Shown here: positions 15,322 through 20,181 of the stretch, one piece after another | Numbering within the stretch: the first letter of the stretch is position 1 | Layout: the number at the start of each line of letters is the position of its first letter | Source: Tunturiibacter gelidiferens | GTDB lineage: Bacteria > Acidobacteriota > Terriglobia > Terriglobales > Acidobacteriaceae | Length of the DNA stretch: 64,000 nt | Direction of reading: 5' to 3' | NCBI RefSeq assembly: GCF_013410115.1 | Contig: NZ_JACCCV010000001.1 | Location: 2,728,001-2,792,000, forward strand | Notes under the pieces: generated by a model | Told to the model about the DNA's origin: nothing | The model's database searches: none | What the model saw: only the letters and a program-made list of their open reading frames with translations | Made by a program: the position numbers and the translations under genes

Positions 15322-16338
15322 TTATTTTAGTTTCGACTTTATGTCGCGTAGTAGTTCGGGAAGTCGATTGAAGAGCGCGACGGAACGAAGCCACTGCCGG
15401 TTGTCGATGGCGGGATAGCCGCTGACGACCTTTCCGGGGGCTACATCGTTGGGAATTCCGCTTTGGGCTGTCGCGATGGCTCCGTCGCCGATGGTGCAGT
15501 GTCCAGCGACGCCGACCTGGCCGGCGAGGATGACGTTTTTGCCGATGATGGTGGAACCGGCGAGGCCAACCTGGGCGCAGAGGAGAGTGTCTTCGCCTAC
15601 GGTTGAGCCATGGCCAACCTGGACGAGATTGTCGATCTTGGCTCCGGCGTGGACGCGGGTTTCGCCGATGGAGGCGCGGTCGATGCAGGCGTTGGCCTGG
15701 ACTTCGACGTTGTCTTCGAGGATGGCGGGGCCGGATTGGAGGATCTTGTACCAGCTGCCGTCGGATTGGCGGGCGAAGCCGAAGCCGTCGGCCCCTACGA
15801 TGGCACCGTTCTGGAGGGTGACGTTGTCGCCTAGCTGGCAGTGTTCGCGAACGATGGCGTGGGCGTGGGCGAAGAAGTTGTCGCCGATGCCGGCGTGGGG
15901 GTAGAGGACGACGTGGGGGAGGATGATGGCGTTGTCACCAATGGTGACGTGCTCGCCGATGACGGCGTAGGCGCCGATGTGGGCGTTGGCTCCGATCTGC
16001 GCGGTAGGCGCGATGGCTGCGGTGGGGTCGATGCCGGGGGCGTAGGTGGGCGGCTGATAGAAGAGTTCGATGGCGCGCGCAAAGGCCAGGTAGGGGTTTT
16101 TGAGGCGGAGGGTGGCGGCAGGGATCTCAGGGAAGTCGGGTTCGACGAGGACGGCGGTTGCCTTTGTGGTGTGGGCGAGGGAGGCGTACTTCGGGTTGGC
16201 GACGAAGGCGAGGGCACCGGGAGTGGCGGTCTCGATGCCGGCTACCTGGGTGATTCGGGCGGCAGGATCGCCGTGCAGGGTGGCGCCGAGATGATCGGCC
16301 AGGGCGGCGAGAGTTACCGATTTCGGACTGGATTGCAT
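15322..16338 (-). CDS. lpxD: UDP-3-O-acylglucosamine N-acyltransferase
   Basis: LpxD adds the N-linked 3-hydroxyacyl chain to UDP-3-O-acylglucosamine in lipid A synthesis, in the cytoplasm. The 338-residue protein has an N-terminal uridine-binding domain (about 1-100; [10 protein letters not shown] motif) and a left-handed beta helix of hexapeptide repeats (about 105-310). The catalytic His lies in [17 protein letters not shown]-type sequence ([11 protein letters not shown]) matches the family. The presence of lpxD shows a lipopolysaccharide-bearing outer membrane. It is 45 bases downstream of the unknown gene at 16384; other lpx genes are not in the window. Confidence 0.95.
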
Positions 16339-16383
16339 GGGGTGGATTGTAATGGACGAGACAACGAAGGGTCTGTGATGGAG

Positions 16384-16923
16384 CTAGTTGGGGCGGCTGT
16401 TGGGTGGGATGAGGTTGGTAAAGAGGTCTTCCTGCAGGCTGGGGACTGAAGAGGCAGGGAGGGGTTTGCGGCGCGACGGGCTGGTGATGACGGCAAGAAG
16501 CTGGAGGTCGGTGATGGAGGTGCGGGGGACGAAGATGCGCTGTGTGTTGGAGCGGACGTCGGGTGGGGTGAGCTGGAGGCCGGTGTCGTTGATGAGGTCG
16601 TCGGCGAGGGTGAGGTCGATGGGAGCGAGGCCCTCGAGGAGGTCGCCGGAGCGGAAGGTGAGGCGGAGCCAAAGGCCTTCGGTGCGAGGCTTTGCGAGGA
16701 AGGTGCGGCGGGTGAGGCGTTCGGGGTTGGCCGTGTCGTTGAGGTTGTAGTCGCGGACGTAGCAGATGTGCTTTATGTCGTTGATGGCGAGGGAGATGAC
16801 ACGACCGCTGAGGTCGAGGAGGTCGATGGCGCGGTTACGCGTGAAGCCGGAGAGCGGCAGATAGCCGGGGAGAGTATCTCCTGTGAAGCGGCGGACGATG
16901 ACCTTCTTGTGCGCGGAGGACAT
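16384..16923 (-). CDS. Conserved protein of unknown function
   Basis: This 179-residue protein is cytoplasmic by sequence (no signal peptide or membrane helix). The N-terminal half contains KKVIVRRFTGDTLPGYLPLSGF and LLDLSGRVISLAINDIKHICYVRDYN, followed by RTFLAKPRTEGLWLRLTFRSGD and a C-terminal polar tail. I do not recognise a named family, but the composition and closeness to lpxD (45 bases, same strand) suggest a genuine gene. ATG 16923 is chosen as the start because the frame before it shows no conserved-looking sequence and GGAGG-like bases do not fit the earlier ATG. Confidence 0.7.
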   Translation of the reverse strand: MSSAHKKVIVRRFTGDTLPGYLPLSGFTRNRAIDLLDLSGRVISLAINDIKHICYVRDYNLNDTANPERLTRRTFLAKPRTEGLWLRLTFRSGDLLEGLAPIDLTLADDLINDTGLQLTPPDVRSNTQRIFVPRTSITDLQLLAVITSPSRRKPLPASSVPSLQEDLFTNLIPPNSRPN

Positions 16924-17139
16924 AAGGACTCGCGGATTGTCGCATACCAAGGGTTAGAGCAACGAAAAAGGTGCAACCGGAGTAGTCAATTCGCTAATGC
17001 TGTGTTACATTGGCCTTTTGCGTTTACCTGTGCTCACCATTATAAACGCTTGATTCGTCGGAGCTTAGCCTGCATTGGATAGGGCTTCGATGGGTTGCGG
17101 CGGTCCGGTTTGAACCGGCTTGGAGTAAAAGTACCAGTT

Positions 17140-19044
17140 ATGGCCGACTACATCTACCTGCTCGAAAATCGTCTCTCTCAAGCGCAGCGTGACTCGCTGC
17201 TGGCAGTGCGTGAAGTGGCTCGCGCTAAAGGACTTACCGTGTTTCTGGTGGGCGGCGCGGTGCGGGACATGACCAGTGGATCGCCGGTGCGGGATCTGGA
17301 TGTAGTGGTTCAGGGGAATGCTCTCAAACTGAAGAAGGATATAGAGAAAGCCCACGGCGTCATCACTGGGGAGTCAGAGTCTGGACAGGCGCTGTTTGTT
17401 CGGTTTCCTGGTGGTGTGAGGATGGAGATTGGCAGCACTTTGACGGTGACTTATCCGAAGCCGGGTAAGCCGGTGGTCAAGGCTGCAACGATTCTGGACG
17501 ATCTGCGGCGGCGCGACTTCACGGCCAATGCGATGGCGCTTTCGCTGAATGACGGATCGTATGGCTTGTTGATGGATCCTTTGAATGGGGTGGCGGACAT
17601 CGAGAATCGTGAGTTGCGGCTGGTGAGCAACTATGGGTTCATCGAAGATCCGGTGAGGATGATCCGGGCGGCAAGGTTGATGGCGCGGCTGGGCTGGCAG
17701 ATGGATGAGAAGACCCAGGCGCGTTACGAGACGGGCAAGCAGGAGGGGTACATCTCGGCGATGGGGGAGTTTCATCGCGGGTATGAGACCGAGGAGATCT
17801 TCCATGAGGAGGATCCACTGCGGGTGTTGCGCAAGCTTGAGGCTGAGGGCTGGATGAAGGATCTGTTCCCGGCGTTGTCGTCGGCCAAGGCGAATGTGAC
17901 AGAGTTGGAGAAGCTGCGGGATGTGCAGTCGCAGTTGCAGATGCAGGGAGTTCATCCCGAGGCGGCGGTGGCGAACTTCCCGTACCTGACGGCGAAGATG
18001 TCTCCGAAGGAAGTGGCGGCTCTGAAGAAGAGCTTTGCGCGGCAGGGGTTCGTGCATGAGATCGAGGCGCTGGAGGACGAGGCGAAGGCGTTTGCAGCGG
18101 AGTTCTCGGGCAAGGGCGCGGCTACGCCTTCGCAGGCGTGGAAGCTGCTGCACTCGGCTAAGCCGGAGTCGATTTTGTGGGTGGCGCACACCTCGAAGAA
18201 TGCCGGAGTTCAAAATAAGTTCAAGGGGTTCTTTACGGAGTGGTCGCAGGCGAAGCAGAGGCTGCCTTACGCGTTGATGCAGGAGATGCGGATTGTTCCT
18301 GAGCTGCCGGGGTATGGCGAACTGTTGGACAAACTCTTCTTCGAGCTGATGGATGGCAAGCTGGGAACGGTTGAGGAGATGAAGGCTTACCTCGAGCCGT
18401 ACTCTCCGCCGGCTCCGCCGCCTCCGGTTCATCTGCGCAGACCGCGGGTGGCGAAGAAGGATGCGAAGCCTGCCAAGAGCCGCAAGAAAGCCGCTGCCGG
18501 TGAAGAAGGCGGTGAGAGTGCGGAGGCGTTGGCCGCTTCGGATACGAGTGAGGTTCAGGCGATCGCTCCCGTGCCTGCGAAGAGTGTTGCTGCGAAGAGC
18601 GGAGCTGCAGGGAAGGTTGCCGCGCCAGTGAAGGCAGTTGCGAAGAAGGTTGAAGAGCCGAAGAAGACTCCCGTCACGAAGGCGGCTGCTGCTCCGGCGA
18701 AGGGCAAGGCTGTTGCCAAGGCGCCGGTGAAGGTTGCGGCCAAGGGCGTGGTTGCGAAAGCTTCGGCGAAGAAGGCACCCGCGAAGACGACTAGCAAGAC
18801 TCCGGCGAAGAAGGCTGTCAAGGCTGTGGCAAAGAAGGCTCCAGTAAAGGCCGCGGCTAAGAAAGCTCCCGCGAAGCCGGTGAAGAAGGCGCCAGCGAAG
18901 AGCCCTGCCAAGAAGACTGCGCCTGCCAAAAAGCCAGCAGCTGCGAAGAAGGTGGCGGCGAAGGCTGCTCCGGCGAAGAAGAGTGCGGTGAAGCATGCTC
19001 CGGCGAAGAAGGCAGTGAAGGTGGCTCCGAAGAAACGCCGGTAA
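17140..19044 (+). CDS. CCA/poly(A) polymerase family nucleotidyltransferase with histone-H1-like tail
   Basis: The N-terminal two thirds are a class II tRNA nucleotidyltransferase/poly(A) polymerase: the catalytic GG motif (LVGGAVRD, 37-43) with D52 and D54 (RDLDVVV), the RRRDFTANAMAL motif and the RNA-binding helices (DPVRMIRAARLMARLG). Such enzymes add CCA to tRNA 3' ends or A-tails to RNA; which one cannot be decided here. From about residue 435 to the end (634) the protein is almost only Lys, Ala, Pro and Val in KKAPAK-type repeats, like histone H1 or bacterial Hc1 proteins, and should bind nucleic acid. ATG 17140 is used since MADYIYLLENR is a natural start. No frameshift separates the two parts. 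Confidence 0.88.
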   Translation: MADYIYLLENRLSQAQRDSLLAVREVARAKGLTVFLVGGAVRDMTSGSPVRDLDVVVQGNALKLKKDIEKAHGVITGESESGQALFVRFPGGVRMEIGSTLTVTYPKPGKPVVKAATILDDLRRRDFTANAMALSLNDGSYGLLMDPLNGVADIENRELRLVSNYGFIEDPVRMIRAARLMARLGWQMDEKTQARYETGKQEGYISAMGEFHRGYETEEIFHEEDPLRVLRKLEAEGWMKDLFPALSSAKANVTELEKLRDVQSQLQMQGVHPEAAVANFPYLTAKMSPKEVAALKKSFARQGFVHEIEALEDEAKAFAAEFSGKGAATPSQAWKLLHSAKPESILWVAHTSKNAGVQNKFKGFFTEWSQAKQRLPYALMQEMRIVPELPGYGELLDKLFFELMDGKLGTVEEMKAYLEPYSPPAPPPPVHLRRPRVAKKDAKPAKSRKKAAAGEEGGESAEALAASDTSEVQAIAPVPAKSVAAKSGAAGKVAAPVKAVAKKVEEPKKTPVTKAAAAPAKGKAVAKAPVKVAAKGVVAKASAKKAPAKTTSKTPAKKAVKAVAKKAPVKAAAKKAPAKPVKKAPAKSPAKKTAPAKKPAAAKKVAAKAAPAKKSAVKHAPAKKAVKVAPKKRR

Positions 19045-19093
19045 CGGGTTTCTGGTCCTGTGGATACATCTATGCTGAATCTTCTTTAGACGG

Positions 19094-19230
19094 AGGTTCG
19101 GAGACCTTTTGGCGGAAATGGTCGGAGGGTTGTGATGGGTGGAGACCTTCGGGATCCTTCGCTGCGCTCAGGATGACAGCAGAGAGCGGAACGATGACAG
19201 GCGAGGCATGGGACGATGACCTGCCGCGGT
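19094..19230. repeat. GGATCCTTCGCTGCGCTCAG repeat, unit 1
   Basis: The unit runs from GGTTCGGAGAC through the palindromic core GGATCCTTCGCTGCGCTCAG and GATGACAGCAGAGAGCG to CGATGACCTGCCGCGG. Unit 2 follows in direct orientation; related copies are at 46111 and 63462. Confidence 0.75.
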
Positions 19231-19235
19231 GTGGA

Positions 19236-19396
19236 AGGTTCGGGAGTCTTAGGCGGAAAGGTTCGGAGTGTTGTGACCGGGTGGAGACTTTCGGGATCCT
19301 TCGCTGCGCTCAGGATGACAGCAGAGAGCGTTGACAATGGCGGCCGCGGCGTGTGGCAATCGCCGGACACGGCGTGGACGATGATCTGCCGCGGCA
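19236..19396. repeat. GGATCCTTCGCTGCGCTCAG repeat, unit 2
   Basis: Same order of blocks as unit 1, with an insertion of about 30 bases before the final CGATGATCTGCCGCGG block. The two units form an imperfect tandem duplication. Confidence 0.75.
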
Positions 19397-19590
19397 CGGG
19401 ACGTTGCGCCGGCAGAGACTTGGGGCGGTGAACGGTTGCGGCGTGACGGAAGAGCAGCGGCGGGCTCGGAGCGACAAGCTATGGGGAAGGCAGAGGCATG
19501 TGGGTTTGGCCAGAGTTTGATCTCGAAATTTTGATCACTGTTAGCTCTTCGTAGCGTGTGGACGCATCTCACGGGGTCGAGGTGGTTTTC

Positions 19591-20181
19591 ATGGTGGTTG
19601 CGGTGTTGCTGGGATCGGTGCGTCGTGATCGAATGGGCGATCGTGCCGCGAAGTGGGTTATCAGGGAGTTGGAGAAGCGAGGGCATGAGGCCGTGCTGGT
19701 CGATGCTGCGGAGTTGAAGTTGCCTTTGCTGGACAAGATGTGGAAGGAAGTTAAGAAGGATCCTCCGGCGAAGTATGAGAAGTTGCGGGAGAAGCTGGCT
19801 CCGTTGGCGAAGCTGTATGCGCGGGCCGATGGTTTTTGCATCGTGAGTGCGGAGTATAACCACTCCGTTCCGCCGGGAATCACCAATCTGATCGATCATT
19901 TTCTGGAGGAGTATTACTTCCGGCCTTCTGCGATTGTGTGCTATTCGGCCAGCCAATATGGTGGAGTGCGCGCGGCGATGCAGCTGAGGGCGTTGCTTCC
20001 TGAGGTTGGGATGCCGTCGATTCCTTCGCTGCAGCCGATTCCCTCGATTGGAAGTGCTCTGAGCGCAGATGGAGTTGCGCTGACGCAGGAGCTGGCGGAG
20101 AAGAGTGGGAAGTTTTTTGATGAGTTTGAGTGGTATATGCGGGCGATGAAGGCGGAGCGGGCGAAGGGTGTCCCGGATTAG
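19591..20181 (+). CDS. NAD(P)H-dependent FMN reductase family protein
   Basis: This 196-residue flavodoxin-fold protein is a flavin/quinone reductase. It has the N-terminal phosphate-binding loop LLGSVRRDRMGDRAAKW (about 5-21), the SAEYNHSVPPGITNLIDHF motif typical of NADPH-dependent FMN reductases, and the SASQYGGVRAAMQLRALL segment. It probably transfers electrons from NAD(P)H to FMN, quinone or an aromatic compound in the cytoplasm. ATG 19591 is chosen because GAGGTGG lies five bases upstream. It is convergent with the PEP mutase-family gene, with a weak terminator between them. Confidence 0.9.
   Translation: MVVAVLLGSVRRDRMGDRAAKWVIRELEKRGHEAVLVDAAELKLPLLDKMWKEVKKDPPAKYEKLREKLAPLAKLYARADGFCIVSAEYNHSVPPGITNLIDHFLEEYYFRPSAIVCYSASQYGGVRAAMQLRALLPEVGMPSIPSLQPIPSIGSALSADGVALTQELAEKSGKFFDEFEWYMRAMKAERAKGVPD

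Follow-up and report, generated by a model that had tools for sequence, protein, structure and literature searches.

In the window, by which we mean the whole stretch of 64,000 nucleotides of Tunturiibacter gelidiferens DNA that was analysed, one gene joins a 3'-end nucleotidyltransferase core to a long, lysine-rich C-terminal tail (Table 1), and such a tail was found in every Acidobacteriaceae genome in which the gene was compared. The reading that we hold, with moderate confidence, is that of an A-adding-lineage 3'-end enzyme with an electrostatic RNA tether, serving 3'-end repair or a wider adenylation. The enzyme would be a nucleotidyltransferase of the A-adding or type-IIa lineage, whose C-terminus would have been turned within the Acidobacteriaceae into a lasting tether made of a proline-rich spacer and then a disordered Lys/Ala/Pro polycation. 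The tail would bind RNA without sequence preference and, by analogy with the lysine repeats of topoisomerase I, this binding would raise local concentration and dwell time and slow dissociation from RNA; the tethered enzyme would work at the 3' ends of tRNAs that need repair, and other RNAs may be among its substrates.

Table 1. Features of the nucleotidyltransferase locus (positions in the window, residues of the encoded protein).
Feature	Residues	Position	Strand	Remark
Divergent neighbour DUF6982 (PF22478), function unknown		16384..16950	-	Present at 78/80 named loci, 77 within 0.9 kb upstream
Class-II nucleotidyltransferase core	1-421	17140..18402	+	A-adding / Thermotoga-CCA lineage; LTV in place of the basic/acidic motif
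Pro-rich linker and Arg/Lys patch (SPPAPPPPVHLRRPRVAKKD)	422-441	18403..18462	+	SPPAPPP in 37/37 same-genus loci
Basic stretch, then neutral to slightly acidic spacer	442-481	18463..18582	+	Long acidic block in some relatives
Lys/Ala/Pro polycationic region, ends KKRR	482-634	18583..19041	+	Predicted disordered

The gene is a single open frame on the forward strand (17140-19044, 634 residues), free of stops throughout in the ORF translation of the window. An alternative start, TTG at 17095, is possible, and Met1 at 17140 is invariant in alignments of 14 and 32 rows. The earlier note had described core and tail as joined without a frame break, and had named as grounds for refutation a frame error or the absence of a tail from all relatives. 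The uninterrupted frame, the same join in relatives and a tail dN below dS in ten pairs of relatives bear out the join and rule out a frame error or two-gene fusion; on both grounds the outcome spoke against refutation. In these pairs, which are not independent and in which aligning the low-complexity tail adds error, dN/dS was 0.12-0.26 in the tail and 0.03-0.10 in the core, and dN was higher in the tail than in the core in all ten. Such a ratio is not expected of a frame-shifted or non-coding tail. No sigma-70-like promoter site was found in 16300-19700, and no tRNA genes were located within the window.

By its head domain and motifs, the protein belongs to the class-II tRNA nucleotidyltransferase / poly(A) polymerase superfamily, for whose active site a three-carboxylate rule is described (PMC3925840). 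The PolyA_pol head domain (PF01743) scores 68.7 bits against a cut-off of 23, and the catalytic residues are present, namely D52 and D54 of the DxD motif, the third carboxylate E96, RRD (D126) and EDxxR (E169, D170, R173). The nearest curated family is NF041569 (A-tRNAntase), matched with 126.7 of 1440 bits, far under the cut-off; this profile has 880 positions, twice the core length, and its N-terminal half is missing from the window protein. Among sequence matches of the core in the PDB, the Aquifex A-adding enzyme comes first (124 bits) and the Thermotoga CCA-adding enzyme second (120 bits), while the fold comparison is a tie (VIA Z 23.3 for 4wby from Aquifex, 23.6 for 3h38 from Thermotoga) and Foldseek puts the Thermotoga enzyme on top. 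An alignment-based AlphaFold model from 32 sequences, used instead of a weak single-sequence model (mean pLDDT 48.8), reaches a mean pLDDT of 77.3, with the core mostly above 90 and the tail a coil at about 40-55. The signature of PAP I (PcnB), [LIV][LIV]G[RK][RK]Fx[LIV]h[HQL][LIV] with h as any residue (PMC8208693), occurs in 0/156 A-type relatives and 0/16 HD-type proteins, which rules out PAP I membership of the window enzyme. The name CCA/poly(A) polymerase given in the earlier note is narrowed, on these comparisons, to the A-adding / Thermotoga-CCA lineage; the window enzyme may add A, CCA or poly(A).

The four residues D52, D54, E96 and D126 (DDED) are intact in 36/37 same-genus rows, in 73/80 rows of a set of named Acidobacteriaceae and in 58/79 rows from other genera, where the remaining rows mostly carry conservative substitutions. 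At 16 other-genus loci (L246, L250, L261, L262, L264, L267, L270, L272, L273, L284, L286, L290, L295, L298, L299 and L301) the second Asp of DxD is aligned with Glu, giving DxE or ExE, and the third carboxylate is often Asp. The active site is thus possibly altered in part of the family. At one locus (L054) the beginning of the core is missing. Among plasmid records, 18 had a match, none spanning 80% of the core.

The tail begins at S422 and comprises 213 residues, its linker reading SPPAPPPP. The earlier note had let KKAPAK-type repeats run from residue 435 to the end; that description is true of residues from about 482 to 634, whereas the start lies at 422 and residues 422-481 are of a different kind. 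The net charge of the tail is +49, nearly all of it from the Lys/Ala/Pro stretch, and K, A, P and V make up 78% of the tail against 29% of the core. Chance composition is ruled out, since the net charge averaged -0.4 (sd 7.5) and peaked at 31 in 20,000 random sequences of 213 residues drawn from the core composition. Of the 208 stop-to-stop frames of at least 120 aa in the window, this one scores highest for K minus acid over 120 residues, with 38 against 11 for the runner-up. The motif KKAPAK occurs three times and KPAA once. Low-complexity, net basic and predicted to be disordered, the extension fits the kind in which a lysine-rich tail is attached to a nucleic-acid enzyme (TopA-type). No Pfam model matched the tail alone, even with E values as high as 10 allowed, and against the H1-like model of NCBIfam it scored 10.5 of 80 bits (E 0.52), under the cut-off; with no curated model matched, a histone H1 or HC2 domain in the tail is rejected. 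The term histone-H1-like therefore holds for the composition and not for a Pfam or NCBIfam H1-like or HC2 domain. Given that the tail exists, recurs in kind among relatives and mostly carries a polycationic charge, the non-specific nucleic-acid binding proposed with it follows as a natural inference, and the tethering to RNA, ribosomes or the nucleoid suggested in the earlier note is plausible.

A search of the same genome with the tail as protein query found only the tail itself, while DNA patterns found further lysine-rich stretches at a few places, one of which, at C1:2315077, held no lysine-rich frame passing the filter. Elsewhere in the genome, a 303-residue protein (L165:1305-2216, minus strand, C1 at about 127.8-128.7 kb) has an acidic N-terminal part and is Lys/Ala/Pro in the rest; it matches HC2 and an H1-like model weakly, under their cut-offs, and is a candidate free H1-like protein. 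Ribosomal protein L22, encoded on C2 (L167:1415-1936, minus strand), carries a Lys/Ala/Pro C-terminal extension. The L22 extension was counted in support of an RNA tether, and the H1-like protein against it, since it shows that Lys/Ala/Pro composition in this genome is not confined to RNA proteins.

Comparison of tail presence and length across acidobacterial orthologues, as the earlier note had advised, excludes an oddity of one genome. The SPPAPPP block is shared by all 37 same-genus loci, counting that of the window; their tails run to 154-275 residues, with a net charge of +22 to +41 over the final 120, and at one locus (L035) an acidic block brings the whole tail to -4. In the named set, which covers Edaphobacter, Granulicella, Terriglobus, Bryocella, Silvibacterium, Acidobacterium, Paracidobacterium and relatives and overlaps partly with the same-genus set, linker and tail were found at 80/80 loci, one of them cut by a contig end (L119), one with a whole-tail net charge of -18 (L109) and two with altered linkers that the pattern missed and that are visible in the sequence itself (L120, L132). 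Across the order, the core was found in 120/120 genomes with a completeness of 90% or more; 113 belong to the family of the window genome, divided into 34 of its own genus and 79 from other genera. All 79 were examined and have a tail (75-303 residues), with a positive net charge over the final 60 residues in 78/79 (L272 has -6), and the whole-tail net charge is zero or negative in four (L272 -40, L298 -38, L299 -3, L250 0). The last residue is basic in 109/109 loci of one set and 78/79 of the other-genus loci, the two sets sharing 19 loci. Over the family proteins tail length ranges from 75 to 334 aa, and the constant features are the proline-rich start and, almost always, the basic end, with a middle that may be acidic. 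Three records (L094, L110, L117) are titled Rhodanobacteraceae or Verrucomicrobia and hold a closely Acidobacteriaceae-like gene; they are probably misnamed metagenome bins.

A basic/acidic motif is reported to position the tRNA-CC end for A addition (PMC7014341); at the corresponding residues 101-103 the window protein has LTV and the Aquifex enzyme RRE. The motif is missing from 37/37 same-genus and 64/80 named rows, and it is kept in 16/80 named rows, in 17/19 shortest-tailed rows and in 41/79 other-genus rows, a few assignments among the last resting on doubtful alignment. In a tree of 127 rows, a group of 91 (support 100) contains the long-tailed rows of that tree, and nested in it a group of 74 (support 99; Edaphobacter, Granulicella, Terriglobus, Bryocella) is entirely without the motif. 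Acidobacterium, Silvibacterium and Paracidobacterium combine a long tail with a kept motif. The tree, which takes at least five to six label changes, suggests that tail lengthening preceded motif loss. The later other-genus rows, which lie outside it, include some with a long tail and the motif and others that lost the motif, and the order of events is therefore given as a suggestion. Duplicates were merged, L040, L054, L111 and L196 were left out of the tree (fewer than 380 core residues after a 470-aa frame cut), and the contig-end-cut tails of L119, L051, L052 and L056 were excluded from length figures. The difference in tail length by motif in the tree set (Mann-Whitney p 6e-7) is not counted as evidence, since 19 rows had been picked for short frames and the rows are related. 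In the unpicked 79 genomes the median tail is 132 residues with the motif (n=41) and 225 without it (n=38), kinship uncorrected. A longer tail as compensation for loss of the motif is unsupported, as long tails with the motif exist.

The CCA end is encoded by 48/48 unique tRNA genes found in the genome, and both nucleotidyltransferases should hence serve repair there. The one other PolyA_pol gene (L001) is of the HD type. In bacterial split systems the CC-adding partner is reported to be without the flexible loop (PMC7014341), and this loop is kept in L001, as in 15/16 HD-type proteins read (one protein, L069, is not clearly of HD type at 144.7 bits); the genome thus holds no CC-adding partner with a deleted loop. 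Three class genomes (G057, G058, G060; 96-100% complete) have the HD type alone, so an HD-type enzyme can probably make CCA by itself. With CCA encoded and a full-loop HD-type enzyme at hand, the cell can probably make its CCA ends without the window enzyme, and a need for it in that role is judged unlikely. In another class genome (G052, 100% complete) neither nucleotidyltransferase type was matched. The idea of the tail as a stand-in for Hfq is weakened by the presence of an Hfq gene in the genome.

Around the named loci, lpxD lies near in 62/80 and an FMN reductase downstream in 15/80, contig ends accounting for some missing neighbours. At the 13 loci read from a sister family (L040-L043, L045, L049-L053, L056-L058), the DUF6982 gene lies 1.4-1.9 kb upstream in 12/13, which supports orthology. 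At all 13 the first catalytic Asp, the third carboxylate and the Asp of RRD are replaced, whereas the HD-type proteins of that family are intact in all three read (L067, L068, L074). Some of the C-termini are basic (e.g., L040, L045), others little-tailed or cut by contig ends. These proteins look catalytically dead, yet the gene is retained, and this loss is the strongest hint in the comparison, suggesting a use for the fold besides catalysis.

An A-adding-type tRNA enzyme might have become a new, PcnB-independent poly(A) polymerase with a general role in RNA adenylation, first by the processivity and the substrate-independent grip on RNA lent by the tail and then by loss of the tRNA-CC motif in the clade of Edaphobacter, Granulicella and Terriglobus, with the sister-family gene turning into a dead RNA-binding protein; we put this forward tentatively, as a rather unlikely course. 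Sister-family orthologs that are kept, in 12/13 cases near DUF6982, without catalytic residues (13/13) would agree with a scaffold rather than an enzyme, in which the core serves mainly as a platform for binding RNA or ribosomes and the tail acts as an RNA chaperone or anchors the protein to ribosomes, with catalysis secondary; however, the window's own family keeps its catalytic residues (36/37, 73/80 and 58/79) under a core dN/dS of 0.03-0.10, and we regard a scaffold as unlikely. A low-complexity extension without function, kept because it is harmless, would explain why the tail changes quickly in sequence and in length (75-334 aa among family proteins; dN higher than in the core in all ten pairs), but hardly a tail dN/dS of 0.12-0.26, a tail in every family genome examined, a kept proline-rich linker and a basic end residue in 109/109 and 78/79, and we give it very little credence.

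Other readings concern what the tail would hold on to. As an H1-like tail it might bind DNA and hold the enzyme within the nucleoid or close to it, perhaps where transcripts are being made. Its composition is that of H1-type tails, prokaryotic lysine-rich low-complexity regions have been linked to DNA binding (PMC6821194), and the genome has the further H1/HC2-like protein described above; yet the core, to judge from its sequence, works on RNA ends, and no H1 domain was matched in the tail, so that a nucleoid tether seems distinctly unlikely. More doubtful still is a tail whose acidic block and lysine-rich end send the enzyme to polyphosphate granules or condensates in starvation: AlgP, with its KPAA tail, is reported to associate with polyphosphate granules (PMC9239181), lysine-rich snoRNP regions to self-interact and compact (PMC11528048), and acidic blocks occur in many tails, but KPAA is found just once in the window tail. 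Against the RNA tether itself we count the six tails of zero or negative net charge (L272, L298, L299, L250, L035, L109), and also that AlgP-type tails are described as able to bind not just RNA but also DNA or polyphosphate (PMC9239181). The catalytic loss in the sister family counts against it too, as it suggests a role that goes beyond catalysis.

Among known systems, the Aquifex aeolicus A-adding enzyme (1vfg, 4wby, 4wbz; NF041569) is the best PDB sequence match (E about 1e-34 to 1e-35) and shares the whole-core fold, the catalytic residues and EDxxR, but the window protein differs in the basic/acidic motif, in its long tail and in having no loop-deleted CC-adding partner. The class-II CCA-adding enzyme of Thermotoga maritima (3h37-3h3a, 5hc9) matches in sequence over 31-412 and is similar in fold, while its solved chains (410-425 residues modelled) are without such a tail. 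With PcnB (PAP I) of E. coli, which adenylates RNA 3' ends, the window protein has the superfamily in common, but it lacks the PAP I signature and matches weakly in sequence (42 bits). The C-terminal region of PAP I is basic and RNA-binding. In the topoisomerase I of Streptomyces and mycobacteria, H1-like lysine repeats are reported to slow dissociation and raise processivity (PMC7398561); both proteins are catalytic enzymes with a lysine-rich, H1-like C-terminus, although the topoisomerase is a DNA enzyme of unrelated fold. AlgP of Pseudomonas aeruginosa is described as ending in a disordered Lys/Pro/Ala domain (195 aa), about as long as the window tail, without an enzyme core, and as associating with DNA as well as with the granules (PMC9239181). 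The literature searched on tRNA nucleotidyltransferases, acidobacterial A-adding or polyadenylation, acidobacterial lysine-rich extensions and the PcnB C-terminus, in which subscription journals were mostly outside coverage, yielded no such tail; the enzyme lineage is known and the kind of tail is known, and their combination was not found there.

It is an open question which enzyme adenylates RNA in those bacteria that have no PcnB-type enzyme, and the A-adding-lineage enzyme would be a candidate in 120/120 of the order genomes searched. If the tether reading is true, the lysine-repeat principle, known for topoisomerase I on DNA, would hold for an RNA 3'-end enzyme as well. Enzymes with a short tail, with a long one, with a long one but no basic/acidic motif, and with a dead active site form a natural series in which to study substrate change in template-independent polymerases.
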